Assembly: GCA_907163375.1 (NCBI GenBank)
Contig: CAJQUW010001464.1
Span: 221,965 to 285,964, forward strand
Source: Prostheceraeus crozeri
Taxonomy: Eukaryota > Platyhelminthes > Polycladida > Euryleptidae
DNA length: 64,000 nt
Direction of reading: 5' to 3'
A model generated the notes under the pieces. The model was not told the origin of the DNA, did no database searches, and worked only from the letters and a program-made list of their open reading frames with translations. Below, piece after piece: positions 3,740 through 40,847 of this stretch. The first letter of the stretch is position 1, and each line of letters opens with the position of its first letter. Both the position numbers and the translations under genes were made by a program.

Positions 3740-4154
3740 TTACTCATTTTTTACTGAATTGTAGTGAAGTACAGCGTATTTCAAAATGTTTTCTGGAAGA
3801 AGGTTGCGATCACTTGCTAGCAGCTTTCTTGGTATGTTAAAGCTTCTTTCAACGGACACAGAAAGGGACTGTGGCCGAAGTAGCTTTGCATACAAATCAG
3901 GAGAAGCAGAATCACATGTGTAGTCTGAGATTTGATTCCTTTGAAGACGTGTTTGAATGCATGACAATGCTACAAATGTCATTTTCAAATGTGAGTTCGC
4001 TACAATCGCGATAAGCTTCAGCAGCAGCGTAGAAAGCGGATTCTATCTTGCGATTCAATTCTATTAATTGCGCATAGTTTGACTTTATAATTACAAGTGA
4101 ATCACACAGTGATGGCTCTATAACAGATTCCTTGGCATTTTTGACGGTTTTACC
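3740..4154 (-). pseudogene. hAT-type transposase, 3' end relic
   Basis: The minus strand carries a hAT C-terminal dimerisation signature, SLSVSVERSFNIPRKLLASD, followed by LLPENILKYAVLHYN, close to the usual SVDVERSFS...LSDRR...LVIHYN pattern. A frame change near 3950 separates it from the upstream part (SLCDSLVIIKSNYAQLIELN). The coding frame is interrupted at 4155 by the MITE at 4155-4678. Removing the MITE and one 8-bp duplication joins the frame to sequence at about 4679-4720. The catalytic core is not visible, so this is a dead remnant. Confidence 0.65.
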
Positions 4155-4678
4155 CACAGAATTAGATTCTTTAATCGTATCACTTTGCTAGAAGTGCAAA
4201 CTGATTCAAACAGATGGCACATACAGGAACTTAATAGGTGGGCAAAAAGAAATTTTTAATACCTTGCAGAGATAGGAAAAATAGTTGTGCGTCGCTTGCG
4301 GATTGCTCTGAATTCCTTCAAAATGCTCCGATCGCAAAGACTCCTTCAGATTCGAAGAATTCAGATCATTGCGCAAAAGTTTTCTCGATAATGCTGGGCC
4401 CTCCGATCATTTTAAAAAAAGTTAGCAGGCGCATGAAAAAACGTTCACAAACTTCTCTGTAGAACTTGACATCGACTGTGTCTCTTTGCTGCGTGATCCG
4501 GTTGATAACAGTCACTGAAACTTTGCACAATTTGCTTTGTGTTTAATGTTGAACTGGCTGCTCATTGTTCGATTGCTATGGTATTATGTCAGCAGATTGT
4601 GCCATTTCAATAACGCTACATGTTTCAATGCTTCCTTTCTAGTCAAACGGAAGAAAAGACGACCTGTCTAATTCTGTG
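4155..4678 (-). mobile_element. 0.52-kb MITE family 1, copy 2 (inverted)
   Basis: Reverse-complement copy of 2101-2622, with CACAGAATTAGA at one end and CTAATTCTGTG at the other. It is flanked by the direct repeat GTTTTACC at 4147-4154 and 4679-4686. It inserted into the hAT transposase relic. Confidence 0.85.
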
Positions 4679-8540: not shown

Positions 8541-9507
8541 TTACTTCTTCCAGTATTTCTCCATCCATTTGAATAACGATAAATCAAAATAAACCATCTT
8601 ACCGTAATTCTTCCGATACGTTACCCGGTTAAGTTGCGGTCACCGAGTATGAGAAACTGACTTTACTAGGTCCTCTCAGTCCATGTCTATTGGTTAATTA
8701 GATTTCATTTGGTAGCTGTCAGCCGCATTTAACATACGTAATTGTGAACTTTTGAATCCTTATCTGAGCTGAGCAGTTTGAACAAGCGCATTATGCTGAT
8801 ACTTTATTTGTATTCATTTTCGTTTTTCAGATTTGTTTTTAGGTAGCCGTGTAGACATTCTTGCTTTTATAGATTTCTTTTCCACTTGTCTACATGGCAG
8901 CCTACAATTATTCTACCCTTGATCATTTTGAATTTAAATGCGAACAGTGAATGCTTTAACAATCTAACTTCTAACTTCTTTACTCGTGTTACCATGAGGA
9001 CTGTCGAATACTCGCTGTGTAAAGCAAAGAAAATTGTGTTATTATTCTCTAAATTTAGAAATAGTAATGATGGCTATTCAACTTGAAAGATTTAAATTCA
9101 TTGTCTTCAACTCAATTTCGAAATGAAATACGCTGAAATTACATGACTTCTTTGGTTAAATTAGTTACTTGCTTTAAGACGTGATTGTAAATATTTGGTT
9201 TTGTGCTTATTACAGTCAAACACCAAAAAATGAATTGATATTTATCACTAAATGAAAAAGAAAATCAAATAAAGGAGAAAAATGATGTTGGCTTCTAATT
9301 AAGAAAGTTAATGATGGAACGCTTCATGAAAATGAACAGACGTGATGTCCATTATCAAAAACATCGGATAAGAATGTGCACTAGAATCTTTTTAAGTCTT
9401 TTCCAAGGGGGTCTATACATGTACATGTAGGTACTCATATGTCATTACAAAATCCCTATTTTGTGAAATGATTTTGAAGAGAAAACTGAGGATGCACCAC
9501 GTACTTG
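8541..9507. other. No gene recognised
   Basis: Short open frames only; nothing assignable. Confidence 0.4.
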
Positions 9508-10449
9508 CAGAATGCCTTGGACGAGCACACTAGAGCAACACCTTGGACCAGTAAAACACCTCAGCAGTTCCTTGTACGAGTATACCTGAGCAATGTCTTG
9601 GACGAGCACACCTGAGCAATGTCTTGGACGAGCACACCTGAGCAATGCCTTAGACGAGCATACCTGAGCAATGCCTTGGACGAGCACACCTGAGCAATGC
9701 CTTAGACGAGCATACCTGAGCAATGCCTTGGACGAGCACACCTGAGCAATGCCTTGGACGAGCACACTTGAGCAATGCCTTAGACGAGTATACCTGAGCA
9801 ATGTCTTGGACGAGCACACCTCAGCAGTTCCTTGTACGAGTATACCTGAGCAATGTCTTGGACGAGCATACCTGAACAATGCCTTAGACGAGCATACCTG
9901 AGCAATGCCTTAGACGAGCATACCTGAACAATTCCTTGGACGAGTATAGGCCTACCTGAGCAATGTCTTGTACGAGCACACCTCAGCAGTTCCTTGTACG
10001 AGCATACCTGAACAATTCCTTGGACGAGCACACCTGAACAATGCCTTGGACGAGCACACCTGAGCAATGTCTTGTACGAGTATACCTGAGCAATGTCTTG
10101 GACGAGCACACTTGAGCAATGCCGTAGACGAGTATACCTGAGCAATGTCTTAGACGAGTATACCTGAGCAATGCCGTAGACGAGTATACCTGAGCAATGT
10201 CTTAGACGAGTATACCTGAGCAATGCCGTAGACGAGCACACCTGAGCAATGTCTTGGACGAGCACACCTGAGCAATATCTTGGACGAGCACACCTGAGCA
10301 ATGTCTTGGACGAGCACACCTCAGCAGTTCCTTGTACGAGTATACCTGAGCAATGCCTTTGACGAGCACACTTGAGCAATGTCTTGGCCGAGCATACCTG
10401 AGCAATGTCATGGACAAGCATACCTGAGCAATGCCTTGGACGAGCATTC
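9508..10449. repeat. 26-bp minisatellite array, about 36 units
   Basis: Tandem units of 26 bp with consensus near CTGAGCAATGTCTTGGACGA plus GCACAC. Variants carry TTAGACGAGCATAC or CAGTTCCTTGTACGAGTATAC, and they are interspersed in a pattern suggesting higher-order repeats. Because 26 is not a multiple of three, three units make one 26-codon protein repeat. The minus strand stays open in all three frames through much of the array (213 codons from 10421 to 9780 in one of them). I treat these frames as by-products of the unit sequence, not as a protein gene. Confidence 0.95.
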
Positions 10450-10450
10450 C

Positions 10451-10516
10451 GGCGCTATGGCCGTGTGGTAGAGTGCTCGTTTTTGAGTACGAGAGGTTTC
10501 GCTCATACATTCCAAC
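10451..10516 (+). other. tRNA-like segment, possible SINE head
   Basis: The sequence has a D-arm/A-box-like stretch (TGGCCGTGTGGTAGAGTG), a possible anticodon stem CTCGT/ACGAG and a weak B-box-like GGTTTCGCTC. The acceptor stem does not close, so it is not a functional tRNA. It directly abuts the minisatellite. Confidence 0.3.
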
Positions 10517-15838: not shown

Positions 15839-18800
15839 TGTCTCTGCACTGTCTTCAGAATTTTCTTTTGGGGTCTATCATAACACCATCCTCTACATCA
15901 TTAATTAGATCACAAAGAGCATGAACCGCTGATGTTTTTGATCTACACATGTAATTCGATCGAAATCGGAAAATCACTGATCGTGCCAAAGTTTCTGATA
16001 TCTAAATCGGGTGATCTCTATCCATGTATTCCAGATTACAAAAATCGATGATTACTTTTTTCGTTTGATTTTCACACGAATCCACCATTGTTGCGGTAGG
16101 AAATGAATTCGTGGCATTAATGTGTGTCAAACAGTATATTCCACTTGCTACTGGGAGCATGCAAGTGTGGCTGAGGCCTAACATGCACGTAGCATACCCT
16201 ACTTCATTGAGAGGAAAGCCCATAATTGCTGATATCGCCACATGCATGAATGTCCTGCTTCAAATGAAAGAATAAACAGATGATGTTTAATCGGAGACAT
16301 GTTTCGCACCACTGTCAGTATATATCATTTTTTCTTTTATAAAAAGTCTTGTGGGCTCTACTCACATTGAAGCAGACAGTATTATAATTCCATTGTTCCA
16401 AGCAGTAGCAGATGCAAATAAAAAAACGCTATCTAAGAGTAGGCTAGACGACATCCAATAGAATTGTAATTCAATGTTCAAGCACAATTATCTAGGGCTT
16501 TACATTCGATGAACGCTTGAAAGGAACCGAAAATCTACAGAATCTAGAACTGATTTTTGACCCACCTGCAAAAAATGTAAAGATTTGTACAACGAATCTC
16601 AAGTTCGACTTCGAACAATTCAGTCGGATCCATTGAGGTGCATTCGAATATTCGCACCCATCTATGGTTAAGTCTAAAAATAATTGTCTCAACTACCCTA
16701 GAATTATATTTCACGTTCAGTCTAATGAATCTGTCTTCCAATGCACTATTGATGCACTGCCAATGCGATGATAACTAAAATTGAATTTCATGAAGAAACA
16801 GTTTTTTGTTGATTTTGTGAAGCATTCTTTTATAATGACGATAATCATCAAAGCAACGCAGCTTATTGTTTCCATCTAGAACAATGGGATTCTGTTATTC
16901 CACCTTGGGAAAATTTTCAATCTGAATTGGAGCACTATTTTGCATTTTATGCTAATGATTTAGAAACTTTGAAATCATATTTTCTGTGTGAAAATCGCTA
17001 TTTACTAAATAGACTATCTGCCATAATTATTATTATTCAGAAAATGGTGGTCAACGGATCCAATTAATCTACATCATCTGAGGGGTAATCAAAAATCATT
17101 GTAGTTAGACAAGGCGAAGCAGTCAATTAGCTTTAAATATTTACAGCAGGAAACTATCAATTAATTGAAATTACTCGATGTCAACAATTAATTGATTCAG
17201 TGTCATCAATCAACTAAAATTATTTGCATTTAGCCATATTTGCCTCAGGCGTGGGGGGCAGTATCACACTCGGCTTATTTAATCTCACGCCGGAATGAAT
17301 AATTGTTTGGAGTTCTCCTTCTGTGACTTTTCTTATTTTCTGTTGGCTTTCTCTGAGAGGTAGCTGTTTTTTGTGGACATTTTCTCGACATTTTGGATTT
17401 TCACCTCTATTGATAAAATATTTTGAGTTTTAAATTGATTTGCAACTTCTACAGCTTGCCTGCTCAGTCAAGTAAATATAGTCAAGTAATTATGTTAATT
17501 GACACTCAGATACTTGTTACCTCGTTCTACTAATGCGTTTGTTCTATACACACTACTTATAAATACGAACTTTAAAAAAATTGATTGTTTGAATTTTAAA
17601 ATGCTATTCATAGTAACAAGAACCGCTTAAAATCCAAAATTGACAGCATCACCTGACAGAACATGTGTTAAATAGGTTCTGATAAAAATTTCCATGAAGT
17701 TCTGTCAACTATTTTAGATACAATTACGAAATTTCTAAAAAAACGATTGTTTGAATTTTAAAATGCTATTTATATAACAAAATGAACTTGGAATGACAAA
17801 CTGATACCACCTTTGGATAGAGCATGCCCAAAATGGTTAAACCCTTTTCTGTTATGCCATACAAGTTGATGCTTTAGAAGATGTTAAGCAACCCCCAATA
17901 CTTCACCAACAAGAAAAACCTTGAGTCAAATAGGTTTAAATAGACTTGATGCTGAATTGTCCACTTTGATGCCTCACTTCAACATTTTCTGCATGCAGCT
18001 TTCCTATTTCGATGCAACATGACCTATTGTTTGAAATTGAAATCCAAGTGCAGTGTAGACCTACAATGTACATGGTGCTATAATTGGACGTGAAGATACA
18101 GTCGGAAATTTCCTTTCTTCACATAATGAAATCAGTCGTAGTGCAAACACAGTTTCACTAATTTGGACTCACCAATCCGGGAAACATGATTTTTGAAAAG
18201 TGATGCCTGAAATGACAACTTCAGGCATTGCCCAAAGACAGTCAAGATCGCAATATACTTAATTTCAAAATTACATAATGTGTACTTGTTGATGGTTGAA
18301 TGCTTACTGATTATTTCTGAAATGCCTTAGACTTGCCTGTATTAAAACAGAATTCGATATTGTAAGTTTGACTCTTGAATGCCATTATCTCACTACTTAC
18401 AAAACAGCAGTAAGTACCGTGCAACATAAGTGTGATCTTTATTGACAAAATACCTTAAATCAACATATTTTAGACACCATTCATGCTTTCCTTTAACATT
18501 GTGCTGGTATGGCTTTAGTATGTAAAGCATATCACACTCAAGTAGCATACGAGAGGCATACAAATAGATTCAAAAATATACCAAAAAAACATTTTGGTAT
18601 GCATCCCTCGTATGTGATTGGCATTGAGCGATTTACAGAGCAATTGTTCTTCAAGATTGATTTAATCCCTTCCTAATAAAAGATTTATGAAGTCTGCTCT
18701 GGATTTTGTGTTCACATTCGTCCAACCAAAATTCGATGGCAAGGTAACCAATGTTATGCTGAATACTTATACAAATACTTGCGCGGTTACATTCCAAATC

Positions 18801-20332
18801 ATTGCATGACTGCTGGAATCTTGAGAGTGCAGGCAAGGTTCAGGCATGAAAATGAACGAAGACAACATAAATTCTCTTGCTTTGTCACCTTGAATAATGC
18901 ACAATGATAAACTATGCAAGGCTGACAATGAGGGACGTAGACGAAAATCTACAAGTAATTGAAATAGAGTATCTCCTCCATTTCAGAGCCTCTTTCAGGC
19001 AAATAGTCTCTCATCCTTCATGTTGTCTCAATGATTACAGAAAATTTCTATTCATCGACAGAGTGTGAATACATTGTGATTCCATTCGATATAGGATAGC
19101 CCTTTATGTGTTCACTCAGTAGCCAGATGTCGCGACGTCTCTCCAGATCTGTTTACTGTCTTTACAGACACATTGTGATTTCATTGTCGAAAGGTTTCTG
19201 TTCTTGTTGCGGAAAAACATTGACTTTGATCACTCGAGACGCCGTTCGGGTAATTTTCAAGTAGATTTCTGTAGATTTGATTAACCTTCTATTTGAAGCA
19301 TTTTCTTTACTTTGAATTATAGGAAGCATCCAATGGACATTTACTTCTTTATTATTAGATAAAAGTTGTCATTATATTCATAAAAATTCTAAAAACAATT
19401 CGACGCGCGGTTGCAGCGGAATAGGAAAAATGATATTTCTGGAATTTATGTATCCCGGTGTATTCTATGATAACTTCGATTAAATAACATGATTTTCAAG
19501 CAATTACTTGAGAATTAGCTTATTTAAAACACTTCAGTCTTTCATATATTTTTCAAAATTGAGAACTTTTAATTCTCGTGTATACTTGTAAGATGTCATT
19601 TTATTATGACCAAAGCGTCTTGCCATTTTTTTATTAATGTATTTTGTTTGGAATTCGATAGATAAGGGCGCTTTATCACCAAAAGAGACTTCAAGAACGC
19701 TTTACAAATAATAAAAATCTAAATAAAACATTTGTTCAGTGGGTCATTAAAAGTCTCTTAAAATGCTGCACACAACCATCGTATGTCGGGTGGCAATTAT
19801 AAATTTATGGATATAATGAGCATCTCACGTGGCAAGCGAGATTGATTATATAACATTGAAAGACATTAAGAAAATACAGTAAAGGAGATTAAAGATAATG
19901 AATCTGCGGGGACTTTATAGGCCGAAAATCAAACCCAAGGACGGCGAAATTTCGATCCTCAGCGACCGTCTGTACCAAAGTGCACCAAACCTGATCAATG
20001 AATGTATGCACAACTGTTCATCAATAAGAAAATGAAGTATTTCTAGATTCGATACAAAGATTTTCAGATGTTCAGTGGGCAAAAGTTTGTAAACACGTTC
20101 ATATACAGTGCATTAATGCAATCATAAGTCACCTCCCGAAATCGTATAGAGTGGTCTGCAGTCGTCTATTAAGGACCTTAATAATCAATTAATTTATATG
20201 CCAAATCAAATCTAGCATTTTAACCATAGAAATGGATCTTCATCTCATGTTTTTGTCTTCCAAACGTCTACGGATAACTATGTAATTTTTCACTACTTCA
20301 TAGTTTTGGCATAGCTATTCAGTCCCTTCCAT
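15839..20332. other. No gene recognised
   Basis: A 35-bp block (TTGTTTGAATTTTAAAATGC core) is duplicated at about 17.58 and 17.74 kb. An imperfect inverted repeat with GCATACGAGAGGCATAC lies near 18.54-18.61 kb. No coding sequence can be assigned. Confidence 0.4.
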
Positions 20333-20457
20333 TCAATATTTCAATACTATTCTGTTGTCAATTGCGATATCAAATAAAACTGCTTATAAGAGCTGGCGAA
20401 AAAGTAATATCATAGCTGTCGCCACAAATCAACCATTGATTCCATACTTCCCTTATA
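20333..20457 (+). repeat. 125-bp direct repeat, left copy
   Basis: Begins TCAATATTTCAATACT and ends ACTTCCCTTATA. It matches 23795-23919 at 124 of 125 positions (one T/C difference). The pair brackets the P/THAP and tyrosine-recombinase segment. Confidence 0.97.
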
Positions 20458-20977
20458 CCATTTTCAGTTCCCAGTGCTATGTATTTTAGAGTGCTATAAC
20501 TACCTTAAAACAGTGCAGTATAACGAAGCTTATGATATCTATGTATAACGAAGAATCTTATATACAAAATATACATGCACATCACTTTCTGTAAACATAG
20601 AAGCATGGACAGCTAGAATACTATCACCTGGACTGATCGCTAAGGCAATTTATCAAATTTCTAATACCACTGAAGGTCTATGATCTGGCAATGATAATTT
20701 TACATAGCTTCCTACAAGTCATAGTTCTATGGTATTGCTAATTTCTATGGCTGTAATGCAATCCATTTTTTTAAGTCAAAGCATTGATATCTGCATGTAG
20801 ATATTCGTGGTCAAAGACTGCTGTAGTCATAGAAATAGACTTTCTATGGTATTGTTAATGATGATGAAGCTATGGAAATCGATAGACAAATTCAGGGAGC
20901 TGTGAATTTTAAATGTGGCACATTGTATCAGAAACATTACTTTGATAACAAACACAGCCAGTAGAACATCGCAGAGA
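20458..20977. other. Leader of the P/THAP segment
   Basis: No coding sequence. Several CATAG/CTATG-containing motifs (for example CTATGGTATTGCTAATTTC near 20731) recur here and resemble ends of CATAG-type MITEs elsewhere in the window. An original P-type terminus may be among them, but I cannot pair it with a right end. Confidence 0.35.
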
Positions 20978-22675
20978 ATGGTAATTAAATGCGTTGCAGT
21001 GGGCTGCAATAATGGTTCTGCCTCATCGAATTCGAGTGACAATAAAGTCACTTTCCATCGATTTCCGAAAGATCCATGCATTTTAAGGAAATGGTTGAGT
21101 CGGATAAATCGGAAAGATTTTACTCCATCATCTCACAGTCGATTATGCTCCACTCATTTCGTTGATGGTGATTTTATAAAGAAGAGAAATGACTCAAATA
21201 AGTCGTGAAACTCTAAGAAAGACTCAACTCCAAAGCGAAGACTATTGAAATCCGACGCCGTTCCATCAGTGTTCCCAACTCTCCCAAAATACCTTGCCTC
21301 CTATGAAACGCATCGTAGAGATGATCCACCTACAGCTGAGAAGCGTAGGGCAGCGATACTACAGGCTAACGAAGAATTGACTAATTCATTCCTGAAGGAT
21401 GATGTTCTTTCGTCAACATCTGACTTGATGTTGAAGCTCTCAAAATTATCAGCTGAAATCCCTAGTGGATTTTTATTCACTAGGTTGCCGGACGGTATTC
21501 TGATTTACACGATCGCCGTAGAAGAGATACCAAAATTTCTTGGTTCCATCACAGTCTCCGATGAGATGTACATAACGGTTGTCTGCAGTGAAACCATCAT
21601 AAAGAAGAGTGAATTTTCACATATTTCTTCATCGGGCAAGGTAACGCTATTTTCTCAAGTTCTCAATCTGATGGCATTTCTCAAGTCACTCGTTTGGAAT
21701 GACAGCAATCCCGAATCGTCGATTGAAAAGGCCGTGTCGACATTGAAAGAATTTTTGTGTGAATCCAATCCTGATTCTGACAAGCATCGTACCGTTGAAT
21801 TTGTCTTAGAGCAGTTAGAATTGCTCAATTTGTTGAAAAATCGTAGACGTTTCTCCCCAGGTTTGCTTCTGCTAGCTTTTACCATTTACACAAGTGGTCC
21901 ATCAAGCTATTGTGCCTTATTATCGCAAAACATTTCAACGCTCCCTTCTGTTGGCTTACTTACCAAACTAACCAGATCAGTTAGAAGTGATCCAGGAATA
22001 TGTGATGAACGGTATTTGACAATGCGGTATTCAAAATTGAATGATATTCAACGTCACGTGATGATCATCATCGACGAAGTCTACTTTGCGAAGAGGGTGG
22101 AGTTATCGAATGGAAAAGTCATTGGTCAAAAAGATGTGTTGATATGTCAAACGATATGTCAAAAAGAAATGTTGTATCAAAGGTACTGAGCTTCATGATT
22201 AAATCTGTCGCCGGAAAGTACAGGGATGTTGTCGGTTTATTTCCGATGACAAAACTAACCGCTTCTATGCAACATGACATTTTTCTTTCAATTCTAAAAA
22301 CGGTGAGTGATATAGGATACAATGTTGTCTGTTTCTGTCGACAACCATTCAGTAAACAGATCGTTCTTTCGACTTCTGTGTGGAGGTGATCTTTTGCCTG
22401 AAATCAAACATCCTTTTTACAACGACAGGTCAATTTTTCTTGCATTTGATCCAACACATTGTGTAAAAAATATATTCAACAATTTCCAGCGCAAAAAAGG
22501 TAAAAAAGAGGTAATTTCAGGGAACACTTTATGTTGTAATGGGCATGACATTCTGGTGAGAGTTTTTATCTGTTTTTTTAACTGTGTAGCAAAGAACCTC
22601 ACTAAGGATCTTTCGGAATCCAGCATGAAGGAGAAAAATCAAAGCAAGATACAAAAGCTACGTGGCAATTTTTGA
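20978..22675 (+). pseudogene. P-element/THAP9-like transposase, broken
   Basis: From the ATG at 20978 the frame encodes a THAP zinc finger: C-x4-C (CVAVGC), FHRFP, KWLSRINR, C-x2-H (LCSTHF) and the closing AVPSVFP box. A TGA at 21206 falls inside this domain. The same frame then runs to 22189 through the P-type catalytic region, with a first acidic motif in IIDEVYFAKRVELSNGKVIG. Frameshifts near 22.15 and 22.33 kb follow before VDNHSVNRSFF and FDPTHCVKNIFNNFQRK. The rest of a P-type transposase is absent, and the gene overlaps the convergent recombinase ORF by 74 bp. One stop and two frameshifts make it inactive. The usual role is cut-and-paste transposition in the nucleus. Confidence 0.85.
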
Positions 22676-23798
22676 CTTTCTTTTCACATCTGTCTCTGAA
22701 AAAGTTTGATAAAATATAATTGTTTTTGATTACTTGACTTTTAGTATAGTTGACCTCCAGTGGTATTGCCTGGATATCTGCGATCAGTCCATAGATTTCT
22801 AGCTGTCCATGATAGAAGTAACAATTATAAAAGTTCTGAGCTGGTTGTGCGATTCCAGAATAATTTTGATTGTCGTTTCTGTTCGAAGATTGAGGAGGGG
22901 GTCCACATTCCATTATTTCACTGAAGAAAGTCGGTTCTAAATCTTCAAAATTCGGTTTTAACTCTGGGGTTGGGATTGAATTTGGTGAAACTTCGGGAGG
23001 ATTCAAAACAATAGAGGCATTGTAATCATCATCTCGTCTTCGTTTGTATGCTTCTAATCCTTTCGATGAGCGATTTCCGAGTCGCTTTTTAATTATTTTG
23101 TCGTCGAGACTATTTTCTGACAGTCTTGTAGCACATGTAGCCTTACCCGAATGGCTAGTATAATTCCCTTTCAAATTCGCCCTTGCTGCAAGGATAGGTA
23201 AAATTTTTGAGAGTGTATTCACTCCAACACGCTGTTTGCCAAAGCGAATTGAGTTCATTAAGTTTGGAAGAGTCCTCAAGTAGAATGGGCCTTCAGTTTT
23301 CCCCAATGCTTGAAAATATTCTCTGTACAAAGATATGATAGACTTTCTCCCTTCAGTGTCATAATGTTTGATAACTTTTGGTTTAAAATGTATTTGCCTT
23401 AGACCACCATTAAAATTTTTTCTTGATCTTGAGGTGTATTTAATATACACTTTTCCATCACTATCATCTCCAATGATGAAGTCATTGACTTGCAGGTCGT
23501 GGTGCTCTTCCCTTCCACGTAGTCCGAATAATTTGCAATTATAAAAATATACGGTGTATTGCAATACTTCGCTTGAACAATTTCCAAAAACACCTTTCTG
23601 CCACATTTCGACCTCTTCCGCTTCAGAAAACACATCTGCTTGTTTCGTTTCAATACCAATACCTCGATACGTGAGATCTTTCATGCGACTATCGAGAGCA
23701 TTGGTGAAATATGTATAATGGTTATCTCGAAAGTCTAAAATGTTTTTATCTTGTATTCCATTATCACGTAAGTGTCTTAATATTCCACATGAGATCAA
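22602..23798 (-). CDS. Crypton/KIAA1958-type tyrosine recombinase (DUF3504-like)
   Basis: An uninterrupted frame of about 398 codons on the minus strand. It has the core-binding remnant (GILRHLRDNG), then DSRMKDLTYRGIG, KQADVFSEAEEVEMWQKGV, the likely catalytic arginine region LFGLRGREEHHDLQ, YTSHSGKATCATRL (H-x-x-R position) and GLEAYKRR with the candidate tyrosine. The expected arginine of H-x-x-R reads K, and the usual second histidine before S..L..Y reads N, so activity is doubtful. The C-terminus (FYNCYFYHGQLEIYGL) has the NC-rich strand seen in KIAA1958-like proteins. No ATG sits at the 5' end: the frame opens at a stop inside the 125-bp repeat, and the first ATG codons are internal. 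It is thus 5'-truncated exactly at that repeat. It is tail-to-tail with the P-type gene. Confidence 0.85.
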   Translation of the reverse strand: MISCGILRHLRDNGIQDKNILDFRDNHYTYFTNALDSRMKDLTYRGIGIETKQADVFSEAEEVEMWQKGVFGNCSSEVLQYTVYFYNCKLFGLRGREEHHDLQVNDFIIGDDSDGKVYIKYTSRSRKNFNGGLRQIHFKPKVIKHYDTEGRKSIISLYREYFQALGKTEGPFYLRTLPNLMNSIRFGKQRVGVNTLSKILPILAARANLKGNYTSHSGKATCATRLSENSLDDKIIKKRLGNRSSKGLEAYKRRRDDDYNASIVLNPPEVSPNSIPTPELKPNFEDLEPTFFSEIMECGPPPQSSNRNDNQNYSGIAQPAQNFYNCYFYHGQLEIYGLIADIQAIPLEVNYTKSQVIKNNYILSNFFRDRCEKKVKNCHVAFVSCFDFSPSCWIPKDP

Positions 23799-23919
23799 TA
23801 TTTCAATACTATTCTGTTGTCAATTGCGATATCAAATAAAACTGCTTATAAGAGCTGGCGAAAAAGTAATATCACAGCTGTCGCCACAAATCAACCATTG
23901 ATTCCATACTTCCCTTATA
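23795..23919 (+). repeat. 125-bp direct repeat, right copy
   Basis: Second copy of 20333-20457 with one mismatch. Its left edge coincides with the 5' truncation of the tyrosine-recombinase ORF. Confidence 0.97.
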
Positions 23920-23954
23920 TACTTACTTTGGTCTGTACAAGATGAATGGAAATA

Positions 23955-25073
23955 CAGTCCGTTTCATAAAAAGTGGATCATCCTAAAATTTGACTAAATA
24001 AAACATAAGTATGATACAGAAACATTTTTCATGTTATTTCATGTCCCTAATATATTTAAATGTCCTTATATAATCTGATAAGCTATGATACAGTAACGGT
24101 TCTTAAGAAGCTAATATTTTGTGGCCCTACCCTTATTGTCAATGACATTACCAATTCGTCTAGGCATTGATTCGATGATATCGTTGATTTTTGACTGATC
24201 TAACTTTCTCCACTCTCTTTTTAACAGTGACGTAAGTTGTGACACGCCATCTGAGAGGGCCTCTTACAGCTCTTGAAATTCGACTCAATAAGTCTTCTAC
24301 GAATAGTGGACTTAGAAATAGACGAGTCTAGTGCAGCCATCTCAGTTAACGAGAGACTTGGATCGACTTTAACAAATCTCAAAATTAGGCGGTCTCTACG
24401 TTTGAATGTTTTGCGTGGACGGCCAGAGCCCTCTTTACGACAGAGTCGAAAATCATCATCATGCCATCGATGCACATTTGTGTAAGGGACACTTAGTCGC
24501 TTGCTTGTAGTTCGCAAAGAAAACCCTAGTTCTAACAAGGCTGACACTTTGCCTTTTGTGAATGCGATCTCGTTATTGTTAATTTGTGCTTTGTATTGTT
24601 TTTAACCGGTAAGAGATAGATTTTTAGCTGAAAGCAATCAGGAGTGCTGCCAACACCACCGCAACGAAGTCAGGAAGCTATGGAACATGAAGTCCAGTTA
24701 ATCACATGTAGCAGATACATTATTGTTGATGAATAATGGTGCTATACTGGCTCTGATTGACCGATTTTTTTATTTTTGTTTTGCTTGATAGCTTTTGGCT
24801 TGTAGAACAACATATTACACAACAAAGGAAACAAATGTAATTTTATAAGAGTGAGGTATGATTTTGTGTAACATTGCTAAATGAAGATCAAATTATCTAC
24901 TACTTTTTTATCTATAACAGGAAAACAACTCAATATTCATGCTTGAAATTTCCAACAATGATATTAGTAAGCACAACTGATATATCTTCCAAATTTCAGA
25001 GAAATTCGTTCAAGTTTCGCGGAGTTAGACAAAGTTGAAGTTAAGGATGATCCATTTTTTATGAAACAATCTG
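23955..25073 (-). mobile_element. Tc1-like transposon, internally deleted
   Basis: Inverted ends: CAGTCCGTTTCATAAAAAGT... at 23955-23983 and its reverse complement at 25045-25073. With the flanking TA, 27 of 31 positions match. TA flanks both sides (23953-23954, 25074-25075). The transposase gene on the minus strand lacks its catalytic middle. Confidence 0.85.
24111..24577 (-). pseudogene. Tc1-like transposase, N- and C-termini joined
   Basis: The N-terminal bipartite DNA-binding domain is present: a helix-turn-helix (LELGFSLRTTSKRLSVPYTN), the GRPRK hinge and a second helix-turn-helix ending STIRRRL. After a frame change the frame resumes with EWRKLDQSKINDIIESMPRR then VIDNKGRATKY and a stop, which is the normal C-terminal end of Tc1 transposases. 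The DDE catalytic region between them is missing. The product could at best bind DNA. Length is about a third of a full transposase. Confidence 0.8.
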
Positions 25074-25075
25074 TA

Positions 25076-29689: not shown

Positions 29690-30775
29690 CTTGGATGTAA
29701 CCCACTCTGACGATGAATTACCCTGATATCTGCTTAAAATTCTCACTATATATTTCTCCGGCCAAAAGACAATAGATATGTCAAAGTAGTAATGTTTTAT
29801 AACATTGGAAAGAAGGTATAGTACTATGTCATCTGCATCACGTCTCTGAGATCTCATTGCTTAGAAAAATTGTTGCTTGTTGTAGTATGTCCACGGCATT
29901 GAAAATTTGCATTTGATAGCAACTGTAAGATGCAACCACAATTGATCCATCATTCGAAGGGGAACTGGAATTAAAACAGAGTTATAAGAATTAGAACAAT
30001 TAGAATTGTTAAGAAATGTATGGTATTTTGTAGTCAAAGAAGTAAAGTCAAGAAATATATTACAGTATTTGCTATCCTAATCTGATGCCATTGATCCTAC
30101 CATTTGTATTTTGGAATGAAATAATAAGCAAATAAATAAAAGATGGAATACGTTCCGTTACCAGTTTATGTTGCTTAAATGATTTGCAATATATGATACT
30201 TAATTGCTCAAGCTTTTGGTGTTGAATCAAAGATACCTGTGGACTTCTATAGGAACATAAATACAAAGAGGCAATTTTCTCTGTGTGGGCAGCATATACA
30301 AAATATACATTCATACTATATATATTTACAAGACTAACTTCATTTTCGTTACTTGATACTCATACACTAAGCACTATTGCTCGTTGGCCAATGATTTCAT
30401 TTAATCATGAATACATTCCAGCTATCATGCGACTTTGCATGTGTTTTGTTATGTAGGCCTAGATATAAATTTCTAAATGTCACAAAAAATGAACTATTTG
30501 CAAGTTAAAAAATTCTAGCATGAGTAGGTAAATAAATTAGAGCAAATGCAATTCGTGTTCATTTTAATCCATTCAGTAGTTTAGAATTTAGATATTGAAA
30601 TGGCAAGAATAAATGTGATGGAGACTTACTTTTTGCTGTTGAGGTGGTCGTCAACTCAAAATGGAACCCTTCGGTCATCGTCCCTTCGTTTAGTTGAGAT
30701 AATATTGTTACAGAAAACATAAAAGATTTCCATGGAGGAAGTGGATGCAGATCGCCATTTTGTTTCTTGAGCTCT
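29690..30775. repeat. Inverted duplication, copy 1
   Basis: About 1.1 kb here is repeated in opposite orientation at 37558-38735. Identity is near-complete over the last 250 bp and lower toward 29690. It ends at the same GCCATTTTGTTT boundary in both copies. The preceding stretch, 29426-29689, has no gene; part of it is repeated inverted near 31245-31350. Confidence 0.85.
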
Positions 30776-30831
30776 ATGAAGAAGCAGTCAAACAGATATT
30801 TCATCTCCATCTTTTGATAAGCAATCCTCAT
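30559..30831 (-). other. Exon-like frame of unknown function
   Basis: Minus-strand frame starting MRIAYQKMEMKYLFDCFF. It contains KQNGDLHPLPPWKSFMFSVT and MTEGFHFELTTTSTAK, followed at once by GTAAGT, a consensus splice donor. The KQNGD...TAK part is repeated at 37558-37700 with a single V/I change. No recognised domain. It could be an exon of an unknown element gene or chance. Confidence 0.3.
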
Positions 30832-31872
30832 TCAGTTCTCTTGATACCTTCCTCTGGTAGTCACGAGCCACTTTCCATTAGTCATGCCTTCTCTTGAATC
30901 AGTTGAAGTAAAGTATTGAGTATTGAGTTCGTCTTACTGTTGAGTCTGGACTTCTTTCAATTCCTTTCTTATTTGATCGTAACCTTTTCTACTGCTTTTC
31001 CTCAATGTCAGAGTTGAACAGTTCATCACCAAAGTCCACTTGCATAGTTGATGACCGTGCTCTTCCTCTCCTATTTCAAAAAATAATAGACTATATTTGA
31101 CCTATCTTGTGGAATTCATAGATTTCCATGATACTACTATTTGTGTTTCTTCGCTGAATTCAAAATCAAGTATTTCTTCGCTGAATTCAAATTCAAGTAT
31201 TTCTCCGCTGAAATCACTGTGATATTTAAGATATTGTTAAGTTTGTGTTTCATTGAAATATCTAAGTTTGTTATAAAAATGGATCCATACAGCGCAACAT
31301 AGATCTATGGTATTGGATCTCAGATTGGGCATATCAGTAACCTAGCTGTCTACTCGGAGTTACACAGAAATCTCCTCGCCTTCGGCTCGGAGATTCTCAC
31401 CGTGTAACTCCTCGTAGACAGTAGGTTACTGTACATATCATAGTGATTTCAAAGGAGAAATACTTGAATTTGAATTCAGCGAAGAAACACAAATAGTAGT
31501 ATCATGGAGATCTATGAATTCCACAAGATAGGTCAAATATAGTCTATTATTTTTTGAAATAGGAGAGGAAGAGCACGGTCATCAACTATGCAAGTGGACT
31601 TTGGTGATGAACTGTTCAACTCTGACATTGAGGAAAAGCAGTAGAAAAGGTTACGATCAAATAAGAAAGGAATTGAAAGAAGTCCAGACTCAACAGTAAG
31701 ACGAACTCAATACTCAATACTTTACTTCAACTGATTCAAGAGAAGGCATGACTAATGGAAAGTGGCTCGTGACTACCAGAGGAAGGTATCAAGAGAACTG
31801 AATGAGGATTGCTTATCAAAAGATGGAGATGAAATATCTGTTTGACTGCTTCTTCATAGAGATCAAGAAACA
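30761..31872. repeat. 1.1-kb palindrome
   Basis: Arms 30761-31226 and 31435-31872 are near-perfect inverted copies. The left arm carries one extra 27-bp duplication of a GAATTCAAAATCAAG-type unit. The 208-bp spacer holds a second hairpin. No gene. Confidence 0.9.
31330..31439. repeat. Nested hairpin with GC-rich core
   Basis: CAGTAACCTAGCTGTCTAC and GAGTTACAC pair with GTGTAACTC and GTAGACAGTAGGTTACTG around the core TCTCCTCGCCTTCGGCTCGG. It occupies the spacer of the larger palindrome. Confidence 0.85.
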
Positions 31873-34770: not shown

Positions 34771-37397
34771 GCTATACGCTGCCGAGTTTTGTTCCTGACA
34801 AATATTCAATCCCTACGCCCCGAAATCGACGAACTGTCGATTTTTGCATCTTCCTGCAAGCCATCAATTATCGCAATTTGTGAGTCTTGGCTGAACGCTA
34901 GCATCGACAGCAACAACATTCACCTCCCGTACTATTCTGTACCTGTTCGCTATGATCGACAAGATGGTAGACATAGAGGAGGGGTCTGTGTTTATATTCG
35001 TAATGACATTTATTTCAAAGAAATCAAATATTTGCCAGCTCCTCCTTCATCTATTGAATGCGTTTGGATACGGATGCGTGAAATTATTCTACTTGTTCTT
35101 TATGTACCCCCGAATTTGAGATCTGCCGATTACAGTATTATTATTGACTTTATCATCACTAACTATGACCTAGCTTCTGATGATGTTGCAGATTGTAAAT
35201 TCATGATCGCGGGTGATCTTAATCAATTGCCTACCGACTTGCTCGAACAAAATTTGGGGCTAGCGCAGATTGTTGAAGTAGCGACAAGAGGAGGAAGTAT
35301 TTTGGACAAGGTTCTTATCGACAATCACATGAAAGAAAATTTTTGCCTAATTGGGCCTAATTTTGGTAATGCTGACCATTCGACTGTTTTTGTCAAGCCA
35401 CTAAATGCCAAGTCATATTGTACATCTATCGTCAAATTGTATGATTATCGCGAGACATTCGTGAGAAGATTCTGTGACTTTTTAAGATCAATTAATTGGA
35501 GCTACTTTTACAAACTGGATGTACCGTTACAACATAAAACTGATTTGTTTTATAAGATAATTAATGATGCGCTGAAAGAAATCCCATTCAAGTACGTTGA
35601 AATGATGAGTACAGACAAAGCATGGGTAACTCCTCTTTTGAAGCACCTTATAAACTGCCGATATCAAGCTTACAGGAACAACGATCTCCCTCTTTACAAT
35701 CATTATAAAGTAAAAGTGAAGTCAGAGATCACGAAAGCCAAATGTATTTGGTCCAAACATCTGAAAAATAACAAAGGTAGTGTTTGGAAAATTGTGAGGA
35801 CGGAAAATCCAAATAATTCGCGAGCTGGATCTAATCTAGATAAATTACTGCAGCAGTTTCCAAATTATCAGTCAGCAGAAGAGGCTATTAACAGCTTCTT
35901 CTCGAGTGTGTTTTCAGCTGCACCAAGTTGGAACGATATTGAGTCCCACTTTCCAACCATCACTGACCCTTGGCTACCAGATATTAGTGTTACAAAGACA
36001 TACGAAATGCTACGCTCTTTAAAAGTCAACAAGTCGTCAGGCTGTGCCTCTCTTTCTCCTCGACTTCTGCGTGAGGCTGCAGGCATACTATCAGGCCCTG
36101 TATCTCACATGTTTTGTCTCTCCGTCAGTGTAGGTGTTGTTCCTACTCAATGGAAATTGGCGAACGTAATCCCTGTCCCCAAAAATCCAAATCCCAGTGT
36201 CAACGAACTGAGGCCTATATCTGTTCTTCCAATTTTGGCCAAGCTTCTAGAAAAGTACGTACTAATGTCAATCGAAGAAAGACTCTTGTCCCTGTATGGT
36301 GATAACCAATTTGGTTTTCGTCGCGGATCATCGACTTTATGCGCTAATATTCAATTACACGACTTCATAACATCTAAATTGGATCGTGAAGATATATCAG
36401 GAGTGACAGTGATATCATTCGATTTCAGCAGAGCATTTGACCGCCTACAGCATGAGAAATTTTTTGCTTATCTGACATCAAAGCATTTGCCAACTAAATT
36501 TCTGGAATGGTTAGCAGATTATTTCAAAGATCGATATCAGAGAGTTTGTGTGAAGCATATAGCAAATAGCAATTTCCGTCAAGTGACTTCAGGCGTTCCT
36601 CAGGGGTGCATAATTTCACCACATATGTTTGCTGCTTACATGGGCTCCTTAAACTCATTCTCTAATGACACGATGCTTATCAAGTACGCAGATGATGTTT
36701 TAGTTTCAATTCCTTTCTCTACAAATGATGATGTAAACCATGCCATTCAACTGGAAGCAACCAACATAAAAAGCTGGTGTCGTGATCATGGTCTGATATT
36801 AAATGAGCAGAAGTCAAGAGTGATGATTGTCAAAAAGCGAAATACTCCTATCATAAACGTATTGTGTATGCCGCAAGTTGATCATCTAAACTGTCTTGGT
36901 GTAACTTTCTCAGGAGATCTCACTTGGATTAAGCATGTTGACTCAATATGTAAAAAATCGAGCCGTCGTATTTTTCTCTTAAAACGTTTAAAGAAATATT
37001 CTGGACTTCAGAAATCCGATTTGATACAAATTTATCATAATATGATTCTTGGTATACTTGAATACAATTCCGCTGTTTTTGTATCGCTTAACAATAAAGA
37101 ATCAAAAAAAAATTGAGAGAATTCGTCGACGTTGCCATAACATCATATGTGGCTTTAATTGTGACTGTGGTATGTTTCCATCTACTAGGGAAAGACGCGT
37201 TTCGCAAGCATTAAAGACATTCAAGAAGCTTGAAAAACCCGAATAACATTCTGCATCACCTATTTCCACAGCGACTCACCTATTCCGGTTTGCTTCGCCA
37301 GCCTATGTGTAAAACACATCGTAGAATCAAATCATTTTTTCCGTATTGTATTCCTCTCTATAATACTTCATTTTCTGGATCGAGAAAACAAGGATGA
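34771..37397 (+). pseudogene. LINE ORF2: apurinic endonuclease and reverse transcriptase
   Basis: The frame opens after a TAA at 34768 but has no ATG near its start. The first residues (LFLTNIQSLRPEIDEL) are already endonuclease, so initiation is unclear. Endonuclease motifs are ICESW, GDLNQLPTDLL and NADHS. Reverse-transcriptase motifs are NELRPISVLPILAKLLEKYV, QFGFRRGSST, SFDFSRAFDRLQHEKF, SGVPQGCIISP and KYADDVLVSI (36682-36711). A slip in an A9 run at about 37107 and a second one-base shift near 37241 split off the tail (IERIRRRCHNIICGF; YSGLLRQPMCKTHRRIKSFF). It is otherwise intact over 775 codons, so it was active recently. CR1/L2-like affinity is inferred from motifs. Confidence 0.9.
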
Positions 37398-37557: not shown

Positions 37558-38735
37558 TTATAAACAAAATGGCGATCTGCATCCACTTCCTCCATGGAAA
37601 TCTTTTATGTTTTCTATAACAATATTATCTCAACTAAACGAAGGGACGATGACCGAAGGGTTCCATTTTGAGTTGACGACCACCTCAACAGCAAAAAGTA
37701 AGTCTCCATCACATTTATTCTTGCCATTTCAATATCTAAATTCTAAACTACTGAATGGATTAAAATGAACACGAATTGCATTTGCTCTAATTTATTTACC
37801 TACTCATGCTAGAATTTTTTAACTTGCAAATAGTTCATTTTTTGTGACATTTAGAAATTTATATCTAGGCCTACATAGCAAGACACATGCAAAGTCGTAT
37901 GATGGCTGAAGTGTATTTATGATTAAATGAAATAATTGGCTAACGAGCAACAGTGTATAGTGCATGAGCATCAAGTAACGAAAATGGAAGTAGTCATGTA
38001 AATATTCAAAATATGCATGTATACTCGTATATTGTACAAATACCCAAAGAGAGACATATTTGTCTCTTTATATTTATGTTCCTATAGAAGTCCACAGGTA
38101 TCTTTGATTCAACACCAAAAGCTTGAGCTATTAAGTATGTGGTGCAAATCATTTAAGTAATATACCCTGGCAACTCAACGTATTCCATCTTTTATTTATT
38201 AGATGATAACAAATAATAGCTAAGCACATCATATCATGCTTATTAATTCATACCAAAATACAAATTGTAGAACATTCAATTGCAGCTGATTATGATAGCA
38301 AATATAATAATACATTTCTTGACTTTACTTCAATGAATACAAAATACCATACATTCCTTAACATTTCCAATTGTTCTAATTCTAATAATTCTGTTTTGAT
38401 TCCAGCTCCCCTTCGAATGATGGATCAATTGTGGTTGCATCACACAGTTGCTATCAAATGCAAATTTTCAATGCCGTGGACGTACTACAACAAGCAACAA
38501 TTTTTCTAAGCAATGAGATCTCAGAGACGGATTCTGACATAGAAATTAACAATACCATAGTGTACTATTATCTACTTCTATGGATTCAGATGACATAGTA
38601 CTATGCCTTCTTTTCAATTTTATAGAGCATAACTACTTTGACATATCTATTGTCTTTTGGCCGGAGAAATATTTAGTGAGAATTTTAAGTAGATATCAGG
38701 GTAATTCATCGTCAGAGTGTGTTACATAATATAAC
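37558..38735. repeat. Inverted duplication, copy 2
   Basis: Reverse complement of 29690-30775. It begins right after the LINE 3' tail and ends at the insertion site of the 2.1-kb element at 38736. It carries an extra 45-bp insertion (38538-38582). Confidence 0.85.
38538..38582. mobile_element. 45-bp micro-MITE
   Basis: Present here but absent from the matching place in 29690-30775. Ends CATAGAAAT and ACTTCTATG are inverted. It is flanked by GATTCTGA and GATTCAGA, an 8-bp duplication with one mismatch. Confidence 0.6.
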
Positions 38736-40847
38736 CATAGACTTCTAAATTTCTCTGGACAGATAGGTTGAAATTGGCCTCATACATGATCAGGTCAGCA
38801 ATCCTAAATTTGACTACCCTACAAATAGAGAGTCATCAAGCGTTTTCAAATGTAGAGAACGCATTGTCAGCACAATGCCGGTGAAGAACAGTATGTATGT
38901 ATATTTATGTACATTGGCAGTTAGGAAGCACGGGACTGCATGTTTATGCGTTAAACTAATGTGCTAGACCTCGTTTTTTTGCTAATTTTGCGATTTTTTC
39001 ATGAACAATATTTCGATGTCATGAACACATTTCTTGCACATGCTGTTGAAATATTTCATTGAAATTCGGCAATCTGATTCATGTCTGCGTGTACAGCGAA
39101 ATTTTGCGAAGTAGTAAGCGGGAAAGCCACCAGGAGAAATGATATATCGATATTCTGAGCACATTTTTTCATTTTTAAAGTAAGAAGCTATTTTCTTAGA
39201 CAGCTTGATCTCATAGAATACCTTCCAGCAAAGAATGCACGGTTGAAGCACAGATACGTCTGGAGGAAAGACATAATAAATTTTAGTCAACAGTTTTGCA
39301 ACTTCAAGGATGTCGAACATTGCCAATTTAATATTTCTGACATTGCATTCACAACAGGAATCACATTTTTTTACATTTCAGAAGTGAAAGGCAACACGCA
39401 CCACTCACATCATCTCAATTATTGGGATGCATATTGAAATCAGTTTTTGCATGCAAACATTTACATCCTGTGTACATTTCATCTTCTGTGGTTGACTGCA
39501 TGATATTTTGTTATCAGCATTTCTCAGACTGAGTCCGGAAAACTTCAATAAAGAAATTGTCTTTATTTTCTTGTCAATCTCTGTGCGATGACACGTGGAG
39601 ATAAAATAATTTGCTCCAGTAATTTGATCTATCCAGTCAAAACACCTCTCAAGATAATGCACCTCTCAACTGTGCTTTCTCGAGTACTTGTTATTTATTG
39701 TTCTCAGAAGAGTCTCCATCACAGGTCGGATCGCTGAATATCTGTTCCAACCCCTCAGAAGTGGCTGATCAGGTTGGGAATGCTTATTGTGTCCATCATC
39801 ATTGTTTTCATCGAAATATAAGAAGGAACTCCGTTTTCTGTTCCTCTTGATCTCAGCACATTTATAATGTGGGAATCTGCAGCTTCTCTTTTCCACTCGA
39901 AATTGTCCCTTACCATGTTCAATGATATGGGTGGATCTAGCGTTAGTCTTCCGTCCGTTGACTTCGGCTTCACCATCAACTTTCCCAAGTATTGAATAAT
40001 GTACATAATTGAATCCAATTTCGAATTTCCATTAGTGGCTGGTCATCCAGATATACAAAAGTCATCAGATTGATAACTTTGGAAAACTTATGATAGATGA
40101 TATGTGCTTGTTGGAATGGATTTCTCTCTACGTGATAGATGCGAATATTCGCAGAATTTTCGACAGTCAATGATGCGACGACGCTGAAGGGAAGATGTAT
40201 ACTCATGATCGCCATTTTTAGCCCATGATCGCTTTGAGATATCGCAAACCCAGATGAAATGATTTCCTTGTAGATTTTAGACAAAATTGTCATACCAAAG
40301 AATCTTCCGAATGTGCGTCCATTGGTAGAACATTTACTTGAAAACGTGGCGATACCGGATCGCGGTTTGTAGTTGTTTGGAAAAGCATCTAGACAGATAA
40401 AGGAAATTTGGCTGAACTGTCCTTTAGATAATGCTTTTTCATTTTTTAGTTTTCCTTCTTTGCATGCGATAATAATCTATGTCCTCCGTGGTGGCATTGA
40501 AGTCAGGTTCGAGGAAGTGAAGGTTACACAAGACGGAATGCTTAGTTGGGATATAATACTTTCTACTAACTCGATGCAGCTACAAATTCAAATTTCCTTG
40601 TTATGCAGAGGAATGTATTGATGCTACACCATCATTGCATTTCGGTTGACAACCAGCTGTGGCATATTTGCTTGGTATTTTGCATTCGATTGAATCGCAG
40701 AGGAGATAAATTTAAAATAGTCATTTGTCACTTCGATTAGCTGCAAAATTCGATCTTCTGTAACACAAATGTTGGTTGGCCTGAACATGTATAAAATGAT
40801 TTCAAATCTTGCTAACCTATCTGTCCAGAGAAATTTAGAAGTCTATG
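38736..40847 (-). mobile_element. 2.1-kb DNA transposon, superfamily unassigned
   Basis: Perfect 34-bp inverted ends start CATAGACTTCTAAATTTC. A 7-bp direct repeat, ATATAAC, flanks it at 38729-38735 and 40848-40854. Minus-strand frames (for example 40293-39976 and 40018-39755) could be remains of a transposase, but I recognise no family. Ends beginning CA with a 7-8-bp duplication fit hAT or P types. Confidence 0.75.

Follow-up and report, generated by a model that had tools for sequence, protein, structure and literature searches.

Cryptons, as their termini are described in PMC3212892, lack inverted and long direct repeats and have terminal direct repeats of 4–6 bp; for the animal Cryptons treated there, no terminal repeats are reported. 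Crypton copies with other transposons inserted are known, and in the medaka Cryptons of Table 2 of that paper the guest is piggyBac-N1_OL or RTE-1_OL. The same source describes MarCry-1_FO of Fusarium oxysporum, a Crypton-Mariner composite that moves as one unit, because its 16-bp terminal inverted repeats and TA duplications are found in four copies. For the P superfamily, the relevant sections of PMC1562414 give target duplications of 8 bp for Anopheles P elements and lengths of 4178–7545 bp for the autonomous ones, and those of PMC4168063 give target duplications of 7 or 8 bp for Galileo. Here we analyze a locus of the polyclad flatworm Prostheceraeus crozeri in which a P-type transposase and a Crypton-type tyrosine recombinase lie together between two 125-bp direct repeats. 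The window, i.e., the whole stretch of DNA analyzed, comprises 64,000 nucleotides of contig CAJQUW010001464.1 (assembly GCA_907163375.1, positions 221,965 to 285,964 of the forward strand) and has a G+C content of 37.6% and, from its P, Tc1 and non-LTR remains, a eukaryotic look; all coordinates are positions in this 64-kb window.

One transposon lying within the gene of another, its footprint still intact, explains the apparent oddity of two enzyme classes in one block, which is an ordinary nested insertion. Specifically, judging from the sequence we put at roughly 85% the probability that a P element landed inside the 3′ part of the recombinase gene, the two being the outcome of independent events and not one element. 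This value covers the nesting only (steps 1 and 2 of the sequence of events proposed below). The parts of the unit are:

20333–20457, no strand assigned: left copy of the 125-bp direct repeat, from a pairwise match.
20458–20603, minus strand: segment separating the P element from the left repeat; it supplies the four codons and the stop into which the recombinase frame runs once the P flanks are joined.
20597–20603, no strand assigned: ATAGAAG, the target duplication of P in its first copy, abutting the inverted repeat and forming the end of the preceding segment.
20604–22811, plus strand: P-superfamily DNA transposon of 2208 bp, from its terminal inverted repeats and target duplication.
22602–23819, minus strand: recombinase open reading frame (ORF) as listed, from its DUF3504 match.
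22812–22818, no strand assigned: second copy of ATAGAAG, abutting the inverted repeat.
22812–23794, minus strand: coding sequence of the Crypton-type tyrosine recombinase (DUF3504), its N-terminal part probably missing, from Pfam and the open frame.
23795–23919, no strand assigned: right copy of the 125-bp direct repeat, from the pairwise match, with no target duplication around it.

The terminal inverted repeats of the P element start with CATGGACAGCTAGAA and are perfect over 15 bp and imperfect over about 75 bp, with a local alignment score of 42 compared with a maximum of 31 in 500 shuffles. Because these ends are directly flanked by ATAGAAG, the element spans 20604–22811. The chance of such flank matches was estimated from 20,000 random intervals of equal length, and a match of at least 7 bp abutting a random 2208-bp interval had a frequency of 0.0001 when no slack was allowed. 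Over 22815–23792 the recombinase frame has no stop in any of its 326 codons, compared with a longest open run that averaged 56 codons and never exceeded 166 in 2000 shuffles of the same DNA. It stays open to the P edge and the listed ORF then runs 210 bp into P DNA (22602–22811). If the P flanks are joined instead, the frame runs for four more residues before it meets a stop. It is the combination of the element's own ends with the 7-bp duplication, the frame open to its edge and the continuation of that frame across the join that indicates that P landed in the recombinase gene. The earlier note, made from the sequence alone, had listed a P/THAP relic and a Crypton-type recombinase ORF between the repeats, which the profile search bears out (PF05485, PF21787 and PF12012, all above cut-off), and a 74-bp overlap of the two ORFs, which we find at 22602–22675; this overlap is a chance reading of P DNA. 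Its suggestion that a Crypton had inserted into a P element has the nesting the wrong way round, since it is P that has its own ends and duplication and lies within the recombinase ORF.

The element shares with the P superfamily (P element, Galileo) a THAP domain, a P-type, TNP-like RNase H domain, terminal inverted repeats and a 7-bp duplication. The copy differs from them in being defective, and at 2208 bp it is shorter than the autonomous Anopheles elements (4178–7545 bp in the part of PMC1562414 that treats them). The remains of its transposase are distributed as follows:

20906–21208, plus strand: ORF with the DNA-binding THAP domain at the N terminus of the transposase (PF05485, E = 1.1e-15), ending at an in-frame TGA (21206–21208).
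21209–22189, plus strand: next part of the relic, in the same frame beyond the TGA, with no confident Pfam match.
22045–22389, plus strand: RNase H-like part of the transposase in another frame (PF21787, E = 1.6e-7).
22316–22675, plus strand: last open stretch of the relic, back in the first frame, with no Pfam match.

Both domain matches exceed their Pfam cut-offs, the second covering profile positions 52–121 of 137. The THAP piece has five sequence matches in the PDB, including THAP1, THAP2 and THAP11, while the RNase H-like piece has none at E up to 1. With the in-frame TGA and two frame changes no intact transposase frame is left, and as read from the DNA the transposase is broken, unless introns explain the frame changes. 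We also note a second, decayed THAP-like stretch at 40499–40639 on the minus strand, which matches the P relic in tblastn at 2e-4 and has a stop within the match, and a 31-bp piece at 18008–18038 that is 77% like 22263–22293 of the relic and could be a remnant of a further P copy or a chance similarity.

The recombinase ORF matches PF12012 (DUF3504) with E = 1.6e-16, above cut-off, over profile positions 1–158 of 162, and further along it matches PF00589 (Phage_integrase) with E = 9.6e-5 and 22.7 bits, below the cut-off of 27.1. The motifs LRGREEH (R), HSGK (H) and LEAYKR (Y), assigned by eye, are of the kind expected, so that in DUF3504, the weaker Phage_integrase match and these motifs it resembles Cryptons and Crypton-derived DUF3504 genes. 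HSGK has K where the second R of the R-H-R-Y tetrad is expected, again by eye. Structure prediction without an alignment was uninformative (mean predicted local distance difference test score, pLDDT, 31.4), and a search of the PDB at E up to 1 gave no match. Relatives were sought in collections of viruses, plasmids and prokaryotes, which have little bearing on eukaryotes: 10 pattern matches in viral contigs and 70 in genome_contigs yielded no confirmed relative, and plasmids yielded no match.

The recombinase differs from Cryptons in that it probably lacks its N-terminal part. The earlier note had the recombinase cut off exactly at the right repeat, a placement that receives weak support. The ORF stays open for 25 bp into the right repeat (23795–23819), and a chance-level match to QRICH1 (PF25561) has its start in the codon that straddles the repeat boundary, at position 78 of the 115 in the profile. 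Its E value is 0.08, or 0.29 with the same start when more repeat and flank sequence is included, both below cut-off, and a query starting past the repeat edge gives 0.14 from profile position 80, also below cut-off. The unrelated DUF4278 does slightly better than QRICH1 in all three queries (E = 0.062 and 0.13 in the two that contain repeat sequence), and with the complete ORF as query QRICH1 is absent from the Pfam matches at E up to 1. Profile positions 1–77 of QRICH1 were not found in the repeat, in the left flank or beyond a Tc1/mariner-like element that begins 36 bp to the right of the right repeat's last base; nor did six flanking minus-strand frames, three beyond that element and three on the left, give any Pfam match at E up to 10. 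HMMER filters discard most weak matches, and a strongly diverged N-terminal part could escape such searches. The 125-bp repeat alone, read in the recombinase frame, likewise has no Pfam match at E up to 10. The possibility that the recombinase gene runs on across the right repeat, either in coding DNA or by way of an intron, found no support: there are stops in frame, and the QRICH1 match is not lifted above chance. Loss of the N-terminal part is, from these sequence matches, likely.

The left and right copies of the repeat (20333–20457 and 23795–23919) are identical at 124 of 125 positions, as the earlier note had stated, the sole mismatch being T at 20413 and C at 23875, and they are separated by about 3.3 kb. 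They share exact runs of 80 and 44 bp, whereas the longest exact direct repeat in 20 windows simulated with a Markov-2 model was 15–17 bp, so the repeats are not due to chance. The inference of a recent event from this near-identity is fair but loose, with one difference in 125 giving a 95% interval of divergence from about 0.02% to 4.4%. Within the 64 kb, nhmmer with the repeat as query (E up to 10) returned two matches, both of them the known copies, and permissive blastn added 14 short matches of 11–30 bp with a best E of 0.25; neither search gave a convincing third copy. The left copy is flanked on both sides by CCATT (20329–20333 and 20458–20462) if the first base of the repeat is counted as flank. 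A flank match of at least 5 bp with 1 bp of slack occurred in 1.2% of 20,000 random 125-bp intervals, a figure to be read with the fact that CCATT was noticed post hoc. Nothing comparable is found at the right copy, where the best flanking match is 2 bp with slack, and outside the whole unit no target duplication was found (1 bp without slack, 2 bp with 2 bp of slack). Searched for internal signals, the repeat showed no inverted-repeat ends (best 5/12) and no symmetry like that of a recombinase core (best 6/8, with 297 of 300 shuffles as good); across the 64 kb, no Rfam match passed the gathering threshold. Part of the repeat, 23 bases long, had no match in viral contigs or genome_contigs, collections of viruses and prokaryotes with little bearing on eukaryotes. 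In none of 12 comparisons did the four sequences bordering the repeats (200, 146, 200 and 200 bp, the fourth spliced across the Tc1-like element) resemble one another beyond the 95% level of shuffles.

These observations can be accommodated by the following set of independent events. In step 1, a Crypton-derived recombinase gene, read from right to left, would have been present at the locus or brought to it, probably as an N-terminally truncated fragment. In step 2, a defective P-superfamily element inserted into the 3′ part of the recombinase ORF and duplicated 7 bp of target; both the insertion and its position can be read from the sequence, and the cut-and-paste mode follows from the family. 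In step 3, a separate one, the fragment came to lie between the 125-bp repeats; in the simplest account with a single event, the fragment, with or without P, may have entered a break where a wide stagger or re-copying of the ends doubled 125 bp of the target. Dissimilar flanks in all 12 comparisons are as expected if a foreign fragment entered one target, and the same dissimilarity led us to reject the tandem duplication of some longer stretch. Duplication of 125 bp by recombination, as the earlier note proposed, or by repair is possible; that the repeat was made specifically by a single insertion into a break with duplicated target we propose tentatively, at somewhat less than even odds. On long target duplications, the literature cites a 2009 title by Gladyshev and Arkhipova, on rotifer R9. 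Neither enzyme need have acted on the whole unit, and P may have inserted either before or after the repeats arose.

Several points count against this account. An early stop is common by chance, and the join across P does not prove where the recombinase originally ended, although an insertion inside the ORF is independent of where the gene originally ended. The target duplication of the P copy is 7 bp, compared with 8 bp in the Anopheles P elements. For step 3, a target duplication of 125 bp is unusual, and the CCATT that borders the left copy at either end hints that this copy is itself a small insert. The truncation would be placed by the QRICH1 match, which does not rise above chance and has DUF4278 slightly ahead of it.

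Three other explanations compete with step 3 alone. The 125 bp could be a dispersed short repeat, of which the left copy inserted with duplication of CCATT and the right copy into the recombinase gene, followed by ectopic recombination with a copy elsewhere; the two flanks of the right copy would then come from different places, and the recombinase gene would be cut there for that reason. This would account for CCATT around the left copy and for the right copy being without a flanking match, and a precedent is seen in Galileo, where according to the pertinent part of PMC2775673 target duplications are exchanged after ectopic recombination between copies. However, the window holds no convincing third copy, the repeat has neither inverted-repeat ends nor an Rfam match, and the CCATT match is post hoc, so we rate this explanation as possible yet rather unlikely. 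Alternatively, the truncation may not be biological: an assembly could have joined reads of different loci at the right copy, or doubled the copy. The right copy has no target duplication, and a short-read assembly could be misled by the stretches of 80 and 44 bp that the copies share exactly, but the T/C difference means that two distinct sequences were assembled and there is no direct sign of an artefact, which leaves this a distinctly unlikely explanation. The third of these competitors is site-specific integration, in which a circular Crypton-like DNA carrying the 125 bp recombined at a matching chromosomal copy, the repeats being left and right attachment sites. A tyrosine recombinase between near-identical direct repeats has the general geometry for this. 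Against it stand the short terminal repeats of Cryptons, or their absence in the animal ones, in the description of PMC3212892, which 125-bp repeats would not fit, the lack of a recombinase-core-like inverted repeat in the 125 bp, and the probable loss of the recombinase N-terminal part. We regard it as very improbable. The reading that a Crypton-type recombinase, or homologous integration of a Crypton circle, produced the repeats as duplicated attachment sites is at least as improbable. If true, it would mean that long direct repeats accompany integration in some animal relatives of Cryptons, which would set these apart from the Cryptons of PMC3212892, and further such units or empty sites in the genome would bear on Crypton-type integration in animals.

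The other two explanations concern the unit as a whole. A composite transposon moving both genes together, also proposed in the earlier note, would fit the position of both genes between direct repeats, and MarCry-1_FO, as portrayed in PMC3212892, is likewise a block with a Crypton recombinase and a DDE-type transposase. MarCry-1_FO, however, moves as one unit with its terminal inverted repeats and TA duplications, whereas here the transposase ends are internal and have their own target duplication, the P frame is broken, and the flanks of the unit match over only 1–2 bp. Because P has ends and a target duplication of its own, we rejected a composite element as well as a Crypton inside P, and we assign the composite next to no probability. 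To the earlier note's remark that it knew of no element with both enzyme classes, a caveat is MarCry-1_FO, a Crypton fused with a DDE (Mariner) transposon according to PMC3212892; for a P element combined with a Crypton, no description was found among the titles and abstract openings listed in searches of one literature library. The nested arrangement as such resembles that of the medaka Cryptons listed in Table 2 of PMC3212892, where a transposon likewise lies in Crypton sequence, with the difference that the guest here is a P element.

Long terminal repeats (LTRs) usually begin with TG and end with CA. A pair of near-identical direct repeats spaced by about 3.3 kb might be taken for the LTRs of a retroelement or something similar, but the 125-bp repeats have no TG start and CA end on either strand, none of the five ORFs of the unit scanned with Pfam at E up to 1 matches a reverse transcriptase, the only integrase-like match belongs to the tyrosine recombinase, and there is no outer target duplication; we consider such an origin extremely unlikely. 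With the nested insertion of P in the recombinase gene as the preferred reading, the origin of the 125-bp direct repeat is the remaining point of some interest, and a modest feature.

The Tc1/mariner-like element next to the right repeat spans 23955–25073 and is bounded by a TA duplication (23953–23954 and 25074–25075), with inverted arms of 46 nt that are 80% complementary. Its ORF at 24221–24601 on the minus strand matches HTH_Tnp_Tc3_2 with E = 1.9e-6 and 28.5 bits, compared with a cut-off of 31.5. Elsewhere in the window, a non-LTR retrotransposon at 34771–37113 has an open frame of 781 amino acids with reverse transcriptase (1.2e-30) and endonuclease (4.9e-7) matches. Two inverted repeats are also present, one of about 420 bp with 98–99% identity (30761–31189 and 31444–31872), which is adjoined or overlapped by a region also matching 37562–38200, and one of about 525 bp with 94% identity and arms 1.5 kb apart (2101–2625 and 4152–4678). 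Finally, 9502–10464 is a head-to-tail tandem array with a unit of about 26 bp, as estimated from self-match offsets, in which minus-strand open frames of 154 and 224 amino acids look like readings of the repeat.

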